From Geoalkalibacter ferrihydriticus DSM 17813 (GTDB lineage Bacteria > Desulfobacterota > Desulfuromonadia > Desulfuromonadales > Geoalkalibacteraceae), in NCBI RefSeq assembly GCF_000820505.1, contig NZ_JWJD01000004.1, forward strand, positions 128,955 to 192,954: a stretch of DNA of 64,000 nucleotides, written 5' to 3'. This document shows, one piece after another, positions 56,626 to 63,234 of the stretch. The position numbers and the translations under genes are program-made. Positions within the stretch are counted from its first letter, which is position 1; every line of letters starts with the position of its first letter. Under the pieces are notes generated by a model that was not told where the DNA came from, did no database searches, and saw only the letters and a program-made list of their open reading frames with translations.

Positions 56626-59019
56626 TTATTTAATAAGGAGCCTCTTTATTTTCTCCACGGCGGCCATGGCGTCGCCGCCATAAAGGTCGGCGCCGATGCG
56701 CGCGGCATATTCTTCCGTGACGACCGCGCCGCCGACCAGGGTAAAGGCCTTGATCCCTTCGTCGCGCAAACGCTGGAGGGTATGCTCCATCTGCGCCAGG
56801 GTGGTGGTCATGAGCGCCGAGAGTCCGACGGCATCTACCTGGCGCTCACGTGCAACGGAAACAATGCGCTCGGCGGGCACATTCTTGCCCAGGTCGATGA
56901 CTTCGAAGCCGTGATTTTCCAGCAGGGTGCAGACGATATTCTTTCCGATGTCATGGATATCGCCTTCCACGGTCGCCATAAGGATGCGTCCCAGGCGCGG
57001 ACCCATCTCGCCCGGCATGCGCTCCTTGATGCGGGCGAAGGCGGCATGCATGGTTTCTGCGGACAACATGACCTGGGGCAGAAAGATCTGCTTGGCACCG
57101 AAGCGCCGCCCGATCTCTTCGAGTCCGGGCAGCAACCCCTCGTTGCTGATGGTCATGGCCTCGAGTCCCTCGGCAAATGCCTGGTCCACCAGGGCCGCGA
57201 CACCTTCGCGATCGCCTTCGATAATCGCCGTGGCCAAGCGATCTCGAATCCCCGCGCCCCCCTCGGCCAAGGGCACGGCCAGGGGCGCGGTCACACCGCT
57301 GTAATGGGCGATGAATTCCTCGGCCCGCACGTCCCGACCCAACAACACCATGGCGGCGCGAAAGCTGTCCATCATTCGCTCTTCTTTGGGATTGATGATG
57401 GCGAGATCCAGTCCGGCCTCAAGAGCCATGGCAAAAAACGCCGAGGAAAGAATGATCCGGCTGGGCAGTCCGTAGGAGATATTGCTGACCCCCAGCACCG
57501 TCGCCAAACCCAGTTCGGACTTCACCTGGCGCAGGGTACGCAGAGTTTCCGGCGCCCCCTTCTGCTCGGCGGACACGGTCAACACCAGCCCGTCTATCAC
57601 CACATCACAGGCCGGCAATCCAGCCTGCTGCGCGGCCTGCAGAATCTTGCGGGCAATGGCGACGCGACCTTCGGCGGTGGCCGGGATTCCTTCCGCGTCC
57701 AGGGCCAGACCGATGACCGCCGCTCCGTACTTGCGGGCCAGGGGCAAAACAGCCCGCAGGCTTTTTTCTTCGCCCGACACCGAATTGATGAGCACCTTGC
57801 CATCCACCGCCTTGAGCGCCCGCTCCAAAGCCAAAGGGTCGGAGGAATCAAGAACCAGGGGCGCGGCCGCCACGCCGGCGACCGCGAACACCGCTCGCTC
57901 CAGGGCTGCCGGCTCGTCCACTCCCGGCGCGCCGCAGTTGATGTCGAGCAGCGCCGCCCCGGCCGCCGTCTGCTCCTGGGCCTCGCGGCGGATGTAGCCG
58001 GTCTTGCCCTCGCGCAGCTCAGCGGAATAGGCTTTTTTCCCCGTAGGATTGATGCGTTCGCCGATCACCGCGCAGGGGGCCGTACCGCCGACCGGCACGA
58101 CCGCGCCGCGGCTGGAAAGAAATAAGCGACGCGGCGGTGGCGTCCAGGATTGATCGCGCCCCTGGAGGGCGGCACGCATGGCATGGATATGGGTGGGCGT
58201 TGTACCGCAGCAGCCGCCGATGACGCGCACTCCCAGCGCAATCATGCGACCGTGAAAAGCTGTCATATCCTCAGGCGTTCCGGGAAAAACGGTCTGGCCA
58301 TCGACCAGCTGGGGCAGGCCGGCATTGGCCTGGGAAATGAGCGGAAGATGGCAGACCGCGCGCATTTTTTCCAGCAGAGCGACAATCCCTTCAGGCCCCA
58401 GCCCGCAATTGGAGCCGATTACATCCACGCCGAGGCCTTCGAGAGTCACAGCCGCGGCCTCCGGCGGCGTACCAAGAACGGTGCGACCACCGTCGTCGAA
58501 AGTCATTTGTGCAATGATCGGCAGTTCGGAAAATTCACGACAGGCAACCACCGCGGCGCGCAATTCACGAATATCGAGGAAAGTTTCACAGCTCAGCAGA
58601 TCGGCGCCGGCATCGACCGCAGCCCGCACCTGCTCACCGAAAACCTCCACCATTTCATCGAACCCGGCATCGCCCACCGGCTCCAGAAAACGCCCCGTCG
58701 GCCCCAGAGACAGGGAGACAAAGCCTTCACCGGCCGCGGACCGCGCCAGTTCGACCGCCCGCGCGTTGATCTCGCGAACCCTGTGCTCCAAGCCGTAATG
58801 CCCGAGCTTGACGCGGTTGCCGCCGAAAGTGTTGGTCACGATAATGTCGGCACCGGCCTGGGCATATTCGCGATGTACGGCGGCCACCACGTCGGGCGCG
58901 GCGAGATTCATCTCCTCGGGACAGCCTCCGGGCGCCAGTCCCCGCTCCTGCAGCATGGTGCCCATGGCGCCGTCAAGAACCAGCACACGCTCTTTTAGGG
59001 CCTGAAGAAAACGACTCAT
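56626..59019 (-). CDS. metH: Cobalamin-dependent methionine synthase, short form without reactivation domain
   Basis: 797 residues. Homocysteine-binding domain (about 1-290) with the zinc ligands ending in VIGGCCGTTPTHI; pterin-binding domain (about 310-570, opening VIGERINPTGKK, with DINCGAPGVDEP); helical cap and B12-binding Rossmann domain (about 590-797) with the cobalt-ligating GDIHDIGKNIV. The C-terminal AdoMet activation domain of E. coli MetH (1227 residues) is absent, as in several anaerobes, so another protein must rescue oxidised cob(II)alamin. The start overlaps the GerMN gene stop (ATGA). Confidence 0.96.
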   Translation of the reverse strand: MSRFLQALKERVLVLDGAMGTMLQERGLAPGGCPEEMNLAAPDVVAAVHREYAQAGADIIVTNTFGGNRVKLGHYGLEHRVREINARAVELARSAAGEGFVSLSLGPTGRFLEPVGDAGFDEMVEVFGEQVRAAVDAGADLLSCETFLDIRELRAAVVACREFSELPIIAQMTFDDGGRTVLGTPPEAAAVTLEGLGVDVIGSNCGLGPEGIVALLEKMRAVCHLPLISQANAGLPQLVDGQTVFPGTPEDMTAFHGRMIALGVRVIGGCCGTTPTHIHAMRAALQGRDQSWTPPPRRLFLSSRGAVVPVGGTAPCAVIGERINPTGKKAYSAELREGKTGYIRREAQEQTAAGAALLDINCGAPGVDEPAALERAVFAVAGVAAAPLVLDSSDPLALERALKAVDGKVLINSVSGEEKSLRAVLPLARKYGAAVIGLALDAEGIPATAEGRVAIARKILQAAQQAGLPACDVVIDGLVLTVSAEQKGAPETLRTLRQVKSELGLATVLGVSNISYGLPSRIILSSAFFAMALEAGLDLAIINPKEERMMDSFRAAMVLLGRDVRAEEFIAHYSGVTAPLAVPLAEGGAGIRDRLATAIIEGDREGVAALVDQAFAEGLEAMTISNEGLLPGLEEIGRRFGAKQIFLPQVMLSAETMHAAFARIKERMPGEMGPRLGRILMATVEGDIHDIGKNIVCTLLENHGFEVIDLGKNVPAERIVSVARERQVDAVGLSALMTTTLAQMEHTLQRLRDEGIKAFTLVGGAVVTEEYAARIGADLYGGDAMAAVEKIKRLLIK

Positions 59020-59687: not shown

Positions 59688-59769
59688 GCCGCGGGACGTG
59701 GCGGTTGAGTACCGCCGTGAATGTCTGAGCCGCGGGCGAGTTATTGGCCGCAAGCGATACCGGCGCCGC
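59688..59769. repeat. Diverged copy of the 134-bp dispersed palindromic element
   Basis: The stretch aligns with about 30874-30950 at roughly three quarters of positions, sharing GGCGGTTGAG, AATGT and TGAGCCGC at equal spacing. Neither 13-base terminal repeat is kept. It lies downstream of murI and ends at its stop codon. Confidence 0.6.
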
Positions 59770-60581
59770 TAACCGATTTCGACCTGCTTGACACCCCCCA
59801 GAGGTGCGCCCCAAAAAGTGCCGCCGACGCGCTCGAAACGCTCCGGTACGTCGGTCACGAAAAAACGGTGTGGACCGGGCGGCGAGCGTCGCAACAGATC
59901 TTGCTCGGCCAGTGCCCGGGCCACAGTCGCGGCCGTTTCTTCCGCCGAGTCGACCAGTGCCACCTCGGGGCCGAAAAAATCTCCGAGAATAAGTTTAAGC
60001 AGGGGATAGTGCGTACAACCCAGCACCAGCGCATCGATTTTTTCGGCGGCCAGGCCCGTCAGGTACTCCTGTGCAACCAGACGGGCAATGGGATGCTCAG
60101 ACCAGCCCTCCTCCGCCAGGGGCACAAACAGGGGACAGGCCGTCGTACTCACCTGAATTCGCGAATCAAGGGCCTGGATAGCCCGGGTATATGCGCTGCT
60201 CTTGATGGTGCCTTCGGTGCCGATCACGCCCACGCGCCGACTGTGCGTCAACTGAACCGCACGCGCGGCGCCTGGCTGGATAACACCGAAGACGGGGATC
60301 TGAAAACGCTCTTCCAGCACCGGCAGCGCCACCGCCGAGGCGGTGTTGCAGGCGACCACCAGCACCTTGACGCCAAGGGCGGTGAGAAAACCCGCCGCCT
60401 CCTGGGCATAGCGAGTAACGGTTGAACCACTCTTCGTCCCGTAAGGAACCCGCGCGGTGTCGCCCAAATAGATCAACTCTTCATCAGGCAGCAGGCGGGA
60501 CAGCTCTTTTAGTACCGTCAACCCCCCGACGCCGGAGTCGAAAACGCCTATCGCACGTTCGGAAACCACTGCCGTGTCCAT
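59769..60581 (-). CDS. murI: Glutamate racemase
   Basis: 270 residues from ATG 60581; the longer open frame extends upstream without similarity, and a GTG five codons in is another possible start. It makes D-glutamate for peptidoglycan. The N-terminal IGVFDSGVGGLTVLKEL is typical, and the two catalytic cysteines are C78 in VVACNTASA and C189 in LGCTHYPLL, with the acidic residues in their usual places. A GGAGAGG lies directly before the chosen ATG. Confidence 0.95.
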   Translation of the reverse strand: MDTAVVSERAIGVFDSGVGGLTVLKELSRLLPDEELIYLGDTARVPYGTKSGSTVTRYAQEAAGFLTALGVKVLVVACNTASAVALPVLEERFQIPVFGVIQPGAARAVQLTHSRRVGVIGTEGTIKSSAYTRAIQALDSRIQVSTTACPLFVPLAEEGWSEHPIARLVAQEYLTGLAAEKIDALVLGCTHYPLLKLILGDFFGPEVALVDSAEETAATVARALAEQDLLRRSPPGPHRFFVTDVPERFERVGGTFWGAPLGGVKQVEIG

Positions 60582-60726
60582 CCTCTCCGGAAATGCCCGA
60601 GCCCCTGTGACGCACCCCCGAAAAAACCAATTATTTTCCAAGGATTCAAGCCAGGGAATGGTAGAAAAGCGACCCGACAAAGTCAAGAGAAATGGCGGTT
60701 TTTGACTTCCTCCCAAAATGGAAAAC

Positions 60727-60782: not shown

Positions 60783-61115
60783 ATGGACTGGTCAGGCATA
60801 ACAGAGTTTTTCCGTCACCTGCGAACCGACCGCATCCTTGACACTCTGCGCCAGTGGAATCTCGGCGAACTCATTGCCACCCCCTGGTTCCTCGGCTCGG
60901 TCCTGGCGCTGGCACTGACAGCCTTCTTCCTGCGCCGGCGCATGCTGCTGGCAATAATTCTTGGCGCTGCGGGATTCGCCTGGCTGACTTCCTATACCCT
61001 GGAGCGCGGCACCTCCCTGGAGGGCGGATCCAACGAAGGACTGCTGGTCTTTGTCGGTGGCGGCGTGGTCTTGGTGGGCGTGGTTCTCTACCTGGTATTT
61101 ATTCGCTCCGACTGA
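60783..61115 (+). CDS. Small membrane protein of unknown function
   Basis: 110 residues with about three hydrophobic segments: PWFLGSVLALALTAFFL (about 34-50), MLLAIILGAAGFAWLTSY (about 54-71) and LLVFVGGGVVLVGVVLYLVFI (about 87-107). The first 30 residues are amphipathic and charged. I recognise no family. It precedes the dehydratase-like gene by 52 bases on the same strand. Confidence 0.65.
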   Translation: MDWSGITEFFRHLRTDRILDTLRQWNLGELIATPWFLGSVLALALTAFFLRRRMLLAIILGAAGFAWLTSYTLERGTSLEGGSNEGLLVFVGGGVVLVGVVLYLVFIRSD

Positions 61116-61167: not shown

Positions 61168-62148
61168 ATGATTGGATTTACCACAACAATTCCCCTGGAG
61201 ATTCTGGTCGCCGCCGGACGTCGCTCCGCTGACCTCAACAATCTCTTCATTACCGATCCCGACCCTCAGGCGCTCATCGAAGACGCCGAGGTCGCCGGCT
61301 TCCCACGCAACATCTGCGGCTGGATCAAAGGACTCTACGGCACAGTGCTGCGTCATGGCATCTCCGAAGTCATCGCCGTGACCGAAGGCGACTGCTCCAA
61401 CACCCAGGCGCTGATGGAAGTTCTGACCCTGCAAGGGGTAAGGACCATCCCCTTCGCCTACCCATATGACCGCTCGCGAGAGACGTTGGCACTGGAGATC
61501 AGCAAGCTGGCACGGCACTTCGGCGTGGACAAGGAGCAGATCGAAGCAGCCCGCAGCCGCCTTGACCAACTGCGCCGCAAAGTCCACGAAATCGACCGCC
61601 TGACGTGGCAGGAAAACCGAGTGAGCGGCGAGGAGAATCACCTGTTTCAGGTCTGCACATCCGACATGAAGGGCGACATCTGCGGCTTCGAGCAGGAGAT
61701 CGACTCTTTTCTGGGCAAGGTCCGCCTGCGCCCTCCTTTCGCCGAAAAGATTCGCTTGGCCTATATGGGCGTTCCGCCCATCGTTACCGACCTCTATCCG
61801 CGCCTGGAAGAGATGGGGGCGCGCGTGGTCTTCAATGAAACCCAACGCCAGTTCTCCATGCCCTATCTTTGTGCCGACATCGAAGAGCAATACCGGCGCT
61901 ACACCTATCCCTATGACATCTTCGCCCGCCTCGACGATATCGAAGAACAGATCGCTTTACGCCGGGTTGACGGGATCATCCACTACGTTCAATCTTTTTG
62001 CTTCCGCCAGATCGAGGATCTCATTGTGCGCAAACGCCTGAAAGTGCCGGTGCTCACCCTTGAAGGCGACCGGCCCGGCCCCCTCGACGCCCGCAGCCGC
62101 ATCCGCATTGAAGGATTTCTCGAAATGCTCAAGGCCCGCAAACCATGA
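61168..62148 (+). CDS. 2-hydroxyacyl-CoA dehydratase / double-cubane-type iron-sulfur protein
   Basis: 326 residues from ATG 61168, the point where similarity begins. Members of this family (HgdB, FldB, E. coli YjiM) hold [4Fe-4S] or double-cubane [8Fe-9S] clusters through cysteines. Cys residues are at 50 (PRNICGWIKG), 76 (TEGDCSNTQ), 163, 172, 235 and 278 (VQSFCFRQIEDL); the C-terminal VPVLTLEGDRPGPLDARSRIRIEGFLEML in pieces is the family end signature. The partner ATPase overlaps it by ATGA. No second dehydratase subunit or CoA-transferase adjoins it, so a single-subunit YjiM/double-cubane-type protein is more likely than a classical dehydratase. Confidence 0.82.
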   Translation: MIGFTTTIPLEILVAAGRRSADLNNLFITDPDPQALIEDAEVAGFPRNICGWIKGLYGTVLRHGISEVIAVTEGDCSNTQALMEVLTLQGVRTIPFAYPYDRSRETLALEISKLARHFGVDKEQIEAARSRLDQLRRKVHEIDRLTWQENRVSGEENHLFQVCTSDMKGDICGFEQEIDSFLGKVRLRPPFAEKIRLAYMGVPPIVTDLYPRLEEMGARVVFNETQRQFSMPYLCADIEEQYRRYTYPYDIFARLDDIEEQIALRRVDGIIHYVQSFCFRQIEDLIVRKRLKVPVLTLEGDRPGPLDARSRIRIEGFLEMLKARKP

Positions 62149-62921
62149 CGACACTCGGAATCGACCTGGGCAGCCGCAAGGTCAAAATCGCCGCTCTGCG
62201 GGCAGGCGAAATCCTGTGGCTGCGCGACTTTGACACCATCCCCTTCTACAAGAGCTACGGCGGCCTGCACAAGGGGCACCTGACCATCGACTTTGCCGCG
62301 CTGGAATTGTTCCAGGACGGCGATGCGCCCGCGGCGATGGTGGCCACGGGCTACGGCCGCAACACCATCAACCTTCAGGGCGCCCGCGTCATCCCCGAAA
62401 TCCAGGCGCATGTCGCCGGCGCGCGCTTCCAGACCGGTTGTGATACGTTCACCCTCATCGACCTGGGCGGCCAGGACACCAAGGTGGCGCGGGTGGAAGA
62501 GGGCATTCTTCAGGACTTTCTGATGAACGACAAATGCGCCGCCAGTTCCGGCCGCTATCTTGAAAACATGGCCCAGGTACTCGACATCGACCTTGACGAA
62601 CTGGCCCGCTATGCCGATAATCCAGTAGCTCTCGATGCCACCTGCGGTATTTTTGGCGAAAGCGAACTGATCGGCAAAATTGTCGAAGGGCACCCCCTGC
62701 CGCACCTGTGTGCCGGCATCAACGCAACCCTGGTCAAGCGGGTAATGCCCATGCTGCGCCGCTTTCCCCAGGACGTACTGTTGGTCACCGGGGGCGTGGC
62801 GCGCAACCAGGCATTTCGGCAACTTCTGCAACAGGCCGTCGCGGCCCGCCTGCTGATGCCGCCACACCCGCAGCACAACGGCGCCATCGGCTGCGCGATC
62901 CTCGCCTCGACCTCAAGTTGA
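62145..62921 (+). CDS. BadF/BadG/BcrA/BcrD-type ATPase (dehydratase activator)
   Basis: A 258-residue ASKHA ATPase that delivers low-potential electrons, one per ATP cycle, to a dehydratase or double-cubane protein. TTLGIDLGSRKVKIAAL is the phosphate-1 loop, FTLIDLGGQDTKVARV the phosphate-2 loop, and NDKCAASSGRYLE and DATCGIFGESELIGK supply the two cysteines (about 129 and 164) that bind the bridging [4Fe-4S] cluster of the dimer. TGGVARNQAFRQLL is the adenosine motif. It overlaps its partner by 4 bases. Confidence 0.94.
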   Translation: MTTLGIDLGSRKVKIAALRAGEILWLRDFDTIPFYKSYGGLHKGHLTIDFAALELFQDGDAPAAMVATGYGRNTINLQGARVIPEIQAHVAGARFQTGCDTFTLIDLGGQDTKVARVEEGILQDFLMNDKCAASSGRYLENMAQVLDIDLDELARYADNPVALDATCGIFGESELIGKIVEGHPLPHLCAGINATLVKRVMPMLRRFPQDVLLVTGGVARNQAFRQLLQQAVAARLLMPPHPQHNGAIGCAILASTSS

Positions 62922-62967
62922 ACGACACAACCGACCACACCGCCTCGCACTTTGAAAGGAACACATA

Positions 62968-63234
62968 ATGAAACTCAAAAAACGCGACATCCTCCTGGTA
63001 ACAATCGGCGCGGCAATCGTTGTCTTTCTTCTGTCCGCCCCGCCTGCAACCACCAACCCGGTCCCATACGACGACACTCACCGGCAGTATTACGACCTGG
63101 CGCGCGATGAAGGCAAAAAATCGGCTGAGAGGTTCTGTGAAGACTGCCACAACCAGGACATGATGCCGCTGCCCGAAGGGCATCCGCCCAAATACCGCTG
63201 CCTGTTCTGCCATAGACTTGAGCGCGACAAATAG
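62968..63234 (+). CDS. Small membrane-anchored dihaem c-type cytochrome
   Basis: 88 residues. An N-terminal hydrophobic stretch (about 9-24, after MKLKKRD) is a signal anchor or uncleaved signal peptide. Two haem-c motifs are CEDCH (57-61) and CLFCH (78-82), spaced by 16 residues. It ends RLERDK. The 46-base gap to the ATPase, with AAAGGAA at 62953-62959, allows cotranscription; a role as electron donor to the ATPase/iron-sulfur pair is unlikely because it would lie outside the cytoplasm. Confidence 0.88.
   Translation: MKLKKRDILLVTIGAAIVVFLLSAPPATTNPVPYDDTHRQYYDLARDEGKKSAERFCEDCHNQDMMPLPEGHPPKYRCLFCHRLERDK

Follow-up and report, generated by a model that had tools for sequence, protein, structure and literature searches.

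A pair of adjoining genes in the genome of Geoalkalibacter ferrihydriticus DSM 17813 probably encodes a one-cluster variant of the ATP-driven electron-activation modules known from the BCR/HAD superfamily, best read as a reductase or radical enzyme; we give this reading a probability of about 0.62. The pair lies in the stretch of 64,000 nucleotides analysed here (contig NZ_JWJD01000004.1, positions 128,955 to 192,954 of the forward strand; hereafter the window) and consists of an HGD-D family protein and an activator ATPase. The reading draws on features of the sequences themselves: a conserved set of three cysteines, the lack of cysteine at three further ligand positions of double-cubane proteins, an intact two-cysteine ATPase, and two orthologues in which the three cysteines and the gene for the ATPase have been lost together. 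The sequences give good support to the view that the HGD-D protein works in the manner of an ATP-activated BCR/HAD enzyme. Its family is separate, widespread in anaerobic bacteria and apparently without a characterised member, and a literature search over titles, abstract starts and passages, with subscription papers outside its scope, returned no description of it.

In the mechanism we propose, a homodimeric ATPase would hold one [4Fe-4S] cluster through Cys131 and Cys167 of both subunits and would be reduced by a ferredoxin-like donor. Hydrolysis of ATP would then deliver one electron at very low potential to the HGD-D protein, probably a homodimer, whose single [4Fe-4S] cluster would take it up. 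Cys50, Cys76 and Cys278 would bind this second cluster and leave one of its irons open, and the open iron could bind or reduce a small substrate in the space that the second cubane occupies in double-cubane proteins. The two genes and the codons concerned are as follows.

61168..62148, plus strand: HGD-D family protein, 326 aa, predicted to hold a single [4Fe-4S] cluster (PF06050)
61315..61317, plus strand: Cys50 codon, predicted cluster ligand, aligned with BzdN Cys73
61393..61395, plus strand: Cys76 codon, predicted cluster ligand, aligned with BzdN Cys100
61999..62001, plus strand: Cys278 codon, predicted cluster ligand, aligned with BzdN Cys327
62145..62921, plus strand: activator ATPase (ASKHA fold, BcrA/HgdC type), 258 aa (TIGR00241, 1hux_A)
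62535..62537, plus strand: ATPase Cys131 codon (NDKCAA), predicted ligand of an inter-subunit [4Fe-4S] cluster
62643..62645, plus strand: ATPase Cys167 codon (ATCGIF), second predicted ligand

Family, fold and predicted cluster cysteines

PF06050 detects the HGD-D protein with 113.5 bits (cut-off 28.4), and the protein's predicted structure (mean pLDDT 90.8, pTM 0.89) retrieved 19 Foldseek chains at E<=0.001, every one of them a BCR/HAD member. VIA Z scores for the model, in which differences below 1 count as ties, are highest for BzdN (31.9, rmsd 2.3 over 311 residues; PDB 8S02) tied with the double-cubane protein of Carboxydothermus (DCCP, 31.2; PDB 6ENO, 7YYL), followed by MbdN (30.1), HadC (30.0; PDB 3O3M), HadB (26.2) and BzdO (25.8). 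The above-cut-off PF06050 match and a fold shared at Z 25.8-31.9 place the protein in the superfamily. A preliminary description of the locus had made this assignment and had likened the lone protein plus ATPase to YjiM/YjiL, rightly in both respects. It had also found the protein shorter than expected, which proves to be a family trait: with start codons set by a simple rule, 80 of the 81 closest members measure 322-339 aa (the remaining one is cut at a contig end), against 383 aa for YjiM and 421-422 aa for the Carboxydothermus protein. These 81 are the window's own locus and the best 80 kept from 271 confirmed relatives.

The genome (3.84 Mb in 23 contigs, listed as 100% complete) contains a single PF06050 match, the HGD-D protein itself, where a HAD heterodimer would have two HGD-D subunits, and a partner subunit elsewhere in the genome is rejected on that count. 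In a tree of 62 rows (49 family rows and 13 references) the family stands as a clade of its own (100/99), outside both DCCP plus HadC/BzdN (99/95) and HadB/BzdO (98/92). The tree's bootstrap is unsettled and several reference branches are long; it is used for separateness, not for deep order. Placement in a tree had been proposed in the preliminary description as a check, with clustering among classical two-subunit CoA dehydratases that have a distant partner gene as the contrary outcome; the separate clade and the lone PF06050 match speak against such a dehydratase.

The family's cysteines were related to known ligands in an alignment of 139 family rows (the window protein and 138 relatives) and 13 reference proteins. 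The six ligands of the [8Fe-9S] cluster in BzdN, a double cubane for which a 600-900 nm shoulder is reported, are Cys36, Cys73, Cys100, Cys263, Cys293 and Cys327 (PMC11971306). Three of them, Cys73, Cys100 and Cys327, align on Cys50, Cys76 and Cys278, each of which is cysteine in 137 of the 139 rows and in all 81 closest members. At the other three ligand positions no row of the 139 has a cysteine: BzdN Cys36 falls on Thr5 (threonine in 138 rows, the remaining one being cut short), Cys263 on a gap throughout, and Cys293 on the variable residue 244, an arginine in the window protein. An hhalign comparison with YjiM likewise sets its Cys40 on Thr5 and its Cys59 on Asn24. The name "double-cubane-type" used in the preliminary description is not borne out by these positions, and of the six cysteines listed there as candidate ligands, Cys50, Cys76 and Cys278 match known ligands while the others are unconserved (among the 81 closest members, cysteine at position 163 in 36, and mostly other residues at 172 and 235).

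The set that remains would suit a HAD-type [4Fe-4S] cluster on three cysteines with an open iron. Both HadB and HadC have cysteine in all three columns. In BzdO, Cys95, Cys128 and Cys380 hold a single open-site [4Fe-4S] cluster that occupies the proximal sub-cluster's position (PMC11971306), and two of these ligands of the [4Fe-4S]-OH2 form, Cys95 and Cys380, align on Cys50 and Cys278. From this set we infer a single [4Fe-4S] cluster in the HGD-D protein.

The activator ATPase and orthologues without the three cysteines

The ATPase scores 109 bits against PF01869 and 176.6 bits against TIGR00241 (cut-off 125.4), and matches 1hux_A with E 7e-39; its closest solved structures, 1HUX and 4EHT, are dehydratase activators. 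Cys131 and Cys167 are invariant in 15 of 15 rows and align with the cysteines of NDKCAA and STCTVF in 1hux_A, respectively, and the protein has the two cluster cysteines per subunit of an ASKHA ATPase of this kind. Its gene overlaps that of the HGD-D protein by ATGA. Only one ATPase-family match was found in the genome at E<=1e-10, and with one HGD-D protein and one ATPase the pair very probably belongs together in G. ferrihydriticus, in line with the earlier statement that the HGD-D protein stands alone with its ATPase. The trio of HGD-D, ATPase and cytochrome genes in that description is real, and an ATPase relative occurs in the same locus in 70 of the 81 closest loci by phmmer (within six genes in 63 by clustering; loci L065 and L073 end just past the HGD-D gene). 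Clustered counts here and below come from a replacement gene-context clustering, in which a few antisense frames remain among the chosen genes.

HGD-D family proteins (>250 bits) occur in 44 of 148 Desulfobacterota genomes, with all other matches at or below 36 bits apart from the second piece (172.8 bits) of a split gene in genome G103. They also occur in 43 of 199 genomes of Bacillota, the phylum of G186 (Desulfofundulus, the genome of locus L055). HGD-D matches turned up in 21 of 40 close genomes, a set that includes the genome of G. ferrihydriticus; two of the 21 reach only E ~5e-4. Aside from split or partial pieces there is one copy per positive genome. The ATPase lies within six genes of HGD-D in 35 of 38 Bacillota loci, and the dedicated form of the ATPase (>250 bits) was found in 10 of the 148 Desulfobacterota genomes, all ten of which are HGD-D-positive with the two genes adjacent by coordinates.

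Two orthologues, in loci L133 (6001-6966, minus strand) and L134 (6001-6963, plus strand), have no cysteine at the three cluster positions; Asp or Ser, a gap and Pro stand in place of Cys50, Cys76 and Cys278. They represent two genera of one family in the same order, and in the tree they group within the Desulfuromonadales part (99/80). Of the 72 positions that >=97% of the other 137 rows conserve, both orthologues differ at 28 and agree at 32, and one of the two differs at 12. Both loci keep the order glutamate racemase (MurI), small membrane protein, HGD-D, cytochrome, with the cytochrome directly after HGD-D. An ATPase gene was looked for in the two loci and not found, and the best activator-ATPase matches elsewhere in the two genomes reach 167 and 156 bits, against >250 for the dedicated kind. 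This joint loss speaks for a role of the three cysteines as cluster ligands and of the ATPase as the electron source, whereas retention of the cytochrome and the membrane protein suggests that the cytochrome is separate from the function of ATPase and cluster.

Methylaspartate genes, substrate and alternative explanations

A link to glutamate metabolism appears in part of the Bacillota. Among the 38 loci from that phylum, GlmE occurs in 13, GlmS in 10, GlmL in 10 and methylaspartate ammonia-lyase in 8; clusters of class I fumarase subunits lie near HGD-D in six, and enzymes of this type can have mesaconase activity (PMC4682846). Representatives above the NCBIfam cut-offs are L077 and L128 for GlmE, L107 for GlmS and GlmL, L051 and L095 for the ammonia-lyase, and L130 for the fumarase. 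Across the 199 Bacillota genomes GlmE is over cut-off in 46, namely 20 of the 43 with an HGD-D family protein against 26 of the 156 without. The genes stand together on one strand in 16 of these 20, directly adjacent in 7 and with methylaspartate ammonia-lyase between them in 9; in the remaining four (G222, G227, G305, G348) they are on different contigs. The GlmE beside HGD-D in G278 is truncated by the start of its contig to a 262-bit fragment. Grouping the 16 GlmE-linked loci of the analysis (L067 and L097 cover one stretch) at 90% HGD-D identity gives 12 groups, and the identities go down to 55.9%. Glutamate fermentation by way of 2-hydroxyglutarate and by way of methylaspartate are described as alternatives (PMC8473912), which makes an HGD-D-type gene within a methylaspartate cluster unusual. 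The GlmE link is strong where both genes exist, but it is not the general purpose of the HGD-D protein. Because the pair sits with the methylaspartate pathway in these Bacillota, our leading guess, a tentative one, is that the substrate could be a C5 dicarboxylate or amino acid derived from glutamate, and not a CoA ester.

In L077 (genome G188), L115 (G263) and L116 (G304), GlmE lies directly upstream of HGD-D and GlmS and GlmL are not beside it; in G268 the coordinates put GlmE equally far from HGD-D. GlmS was over cut-off in none of G188, G263, G268, G304 and G222 and was present in five comparison genomes; the contig from G304 (3.72 Mb) is about the whole listed genome. Among 245 positions invariant in 11 canonical GlmE, 27 are altered in all three aligned stand-alone copies, which keep Arg67, Arg101 and Arg150, presumably the substrate-binding arginines, and have lost Tyr178. 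Generic B12-binding proteins are present in the GlmS-negative genomes. It would be a bold and very improbable proposal that in G188, G263, G268 and G304 the ATP-driven [4Fe-4S] protein replaces coenzyme B12 as radical source for a B12-free carbon-skeleton rearrangement, with another partner elsewhere.

Several observations weigh against an ATP-driven one-cluster module, or against parts of that reading. The cluster match to BzdO is inexact, with Cys128 on Asp75, one column before Cys76, and Cys129 on Cys76 itself. L133 has a cysteine one position before Cys50 and L134 has none there, so the loss is less clear in L133; the losses in both may be a single event in one family only, and given the long branches a loss of function is possible. 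A dedicated ATPase at >250 bits is missing from 34 of the 44 HGD-D-positive Desulfobacterota genomes, and seven of these 34 that were tested (G054, G060, G061, G063, G092, G098, G138) have only generic activator-type ATPases, at best 139-174 bits. In L110, L113, L114 and L117 several other genes separate HGD-D from the ATPase. Pairing in cis is therefore not universal; in many species the HGD-D protein would have to rely on an ATPase encoded elsewhere, or do without one. The association of GlmE with HGD-D has a Fisher p of 1.4e-4 with kinship ignored. GlmE is over cut-off in 3 of the 148 Desulfobacterota genomes, none of them HGD-D-positive (the HGD-D-positive G072 has a match of 381 bits, just under cut-off); it is absent from the G. 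ferrihydriticus genome and over cut-off in none of the 44 positives, so it is not required. Finally, the neighbours vary widely (TtcA, RNA cyclase, KsgA, acetyl-CoA synthetase) and share no single theme.

The protein could also be a homodimeric dehydratase or reductase of CoA esters (HAD or class I BCR type), acting on an acyl-CoA through open-site chemistry of the HadB/BzdO kind. Its cysteines stand in the HadB columns and nearly in those of BzdO, an acetyl-CoA synthetase gene lies directly upstream in L152 and, by sequence start, probably in L147, and an acyl-CoA thioesterase-family gene occurs near HGD-D in seven Negativicutes loci. This reading is nevertheless unlikely, in that HGD-D is one gene and not two, with no second subunit in the genome. 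The protein is also shorter than HadB, HadC, BzdN and BzdO, stands in its own clade outside that of HadB/BzdO and lacks the [8Fe-9S] ligand set of BzdN. No CoA transferase occurs among the annotated neighbour clusters, which are a part of all clusters, and no CoA gene is consistent across loci. Nor are BzdN/BzdO or BcrB/BcrC subunits of a class I benzoyl-CoA reductase indicated, the models TIGR02260, TIGR02263, TIGR03190 and TIGR03191 giving no match at E<=0.001.

Much the same low likelihood attaches to the idea of a reductive activase, in which the pair would maintain a second metallo-enzyme in its active state rather than convert a metabolite; reduction of cob(II)alamin in glutamate mutase or methionine synthase would be an example. 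ATP-driven activation of a metal-cofactor enzyme has been reported for methyl-coenzyme M reductase (PMC12176620). B12 enzymes do recur near the pair: GlmS, GlmL and GlmE in Bacillota, and MetH within six genes of HGD-D in 28 of the 81 closest loci and in L142. The MetH of the window (56626-59019, 797 aa) aligns with the metH model no further than position 843 of 1182 and is apparently without the activation domain. It is, however, transcribed away from the pair, and MetH is found in none of the 38 Bacillota loci. The activation domain PF02965 is over cut-off in 32 of the 148 Desulfobacterota genomes, of which 7 are HGD-D-positive (9.5 expected), and exceeds 90 bits in 13, of which 2 are (about 4 expected). 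PF02965 and HGD-D do not clearly exclude each other, and the missing domain gives no usable signal for a reactivation of MetH. GlmE, moreover, adjoins the pair also where GlmS was not found.

A true double-cubane protein of the DCCP/YjiM type, reducing small molecules such as acetylene, azide or hydrazine at an [8Fe-9S] cluster whose missing ligands would come from other residues or from a second subunit, is a still poorer candidate and is rejected. The likenesses are the fold, the PRNxCxxIK motif, the three shared cysteines and the arrangement of a lone protein with an activator ATPase. The differences are the ligand positions without cysteine, the shorter chain, the family's own clade and a score of 38.6 bits against the NCBIfam double-cubane equivalog NF040772, far below its cut-off of 350, where the controls YjiM, L083 and L084 reach 531, 521 and 499 bits. 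G186 and G188, furthermore, carry an HGD-D family protein beside a separate DCCP over that cut-off.

Hardly credible is a sulphur-handling enzyme like the TudS desulfidases, one-domain superfamily relatives with a catalytic iron-sulphur cluster (PMC11971306; PMC10611767), acting on thiolated nucleotides or tRNA. A TtcA-like gene directly downstream of HGD-D in L137 (6979-7740, plus strand), L139 (5308-5988, minus strand) and L143 (6976-7731, plus strand) would suit it, with L137 and L143 over the TtcA cut-off and L139 a PP-loop match only, as would the RNase PH neighbours and an RNA 3'-terminal phosphate cyclase directly after HGD-D, the ATPase not being adjacent, in L046 (6646-7674, plus strand; confirmed) and L069 (by clustering). 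Against this, TudS is not known to need an ATPase, only two genome families supply the TtcA neighbours, and RNase PH is part of an old operon order.

Other neighbours and wider meaning

The pair forms the middle of a plus-strand run of four genes with a divergent neighbour upstream:

59769..60716, minus strand: glutamate racemase MurI, divergent upstream neighbour (TIGR00067)
60783..61115, plus strand: small membrane protein, 110 aa, first gene of a probable operon
62968..63234, plus strand: small c-type cytochrome, 88 aa, with a predicted N-terminal membrane anchor and two CxxCH motifs

Promoter and terminator counts (2 against 1.1 +/- 1.1 in shuffles, and 4 against 4.8 +/- 2.2) lie within the shuffle range. 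The cytochrome is present in 35 of the 81 closest loci by phmmer, the window included, with exactly two CxxCH motifs in every copy; its cluster occurs in 0 of the 38 Bacillota loci (gene clusters only, the cytochrome itself not having been searched for there), and a PHROGs scan gave no match. Its hydrophobic N-terminus and general knowledge of c-type cytochromes suggest membrane anchoring with the haems outside the cytoplasm, a location that would make it an unlikely direct partner of the pair. In Geobacteraceae and relatives a metallopeptidase-like gene lies downstream of the cytochrome (L027, 8063-8644, plus strand, and 30 further loci); the label comes from PF18894, a phage-metallopeptidase model tested on L027. 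The small membrane protein has hydrophobic windows starting near residues 27-55 and 83-92 and no Pfam or NCBIfam match. Homologues occur in 52 of the 139 loci, all on the HGD-D strand; 43 pass a strict directly-upstream test, and the other 9 have overlapping long open frames.

Within six genes of HGD-D, MurI occurs in 50 of the 81 closest loci, the small membrane protein in 35 and GerM in 33; the 38 Bacillota loci have RNase PH in 25, GerM and a metallo-beta-lactamase fold in 23 each, and MurI in 22. The MurI of the window scores 249 bits against TIGR00067 (cut-off 146.65), and its true start is probably near 60563 because the model match begins at residue 52. The genes murI, gerM, rph and rdgB form an old gene string in Bacillus; the position of MurI may be inherited from it, and MurI is not claimed as a partner. 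Neither the cytochrome nor MurI is likely to be more than a neighbour of the pair. KsgA is a neighbour in L144, and AtuA-family and DUF4387 genes (models tested on L109 only) lie downstream of the ATPase in L095, in a run with methylaspartate genes, and in L109, beside the pair.

Earlier literature touches the locus at one point. Gmet_0544 of Geobacter metallireducens, once taken for the alpha subunit of benzoyl-CoA reductase, is drawn in three species with "conserved hypothetical" and "potential cytochrome" genes (PMC1924859), and, judged from this gene set, is probably an orthologue of the window ATPase. In the passages of that paper that concern it, Gmet_0544 and its neighbours were unchanged on benzoate and no catalytic subunit was found, whereas the window ATPase adjoins an HGD-D gene. 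Two other leads were set aside: a selenium link, where the STRING table in PMC5322559 lists dehydratase/activase genes of another species and is itself silent on the HGD-D family, and an mlp-cluster preprint (PMC10418091), where the word double-cubane appears in the reference list only.

Pfam labels the HGD-D protein as CoA dehydratase, and the probable Geobacter orthologue of its ATPase once passed as a benzoyl-CoA reductase subunit. A published scheme for the superfamily begins with homodimers bearing two double cubanes and proceeds by stepwise loss of sub-clusters in heterodimers (PMC11971306); the HGD-D family would be a further outcome of that scheme, a stand-alone protein minus one sub-cluster. 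It would offer a clean test of what the second cubane contributes, with the orthologues that lack the cysteines as natural controls, and the methylaspartate pathway may provide a lead toward the substrate of the HGD-D protein.

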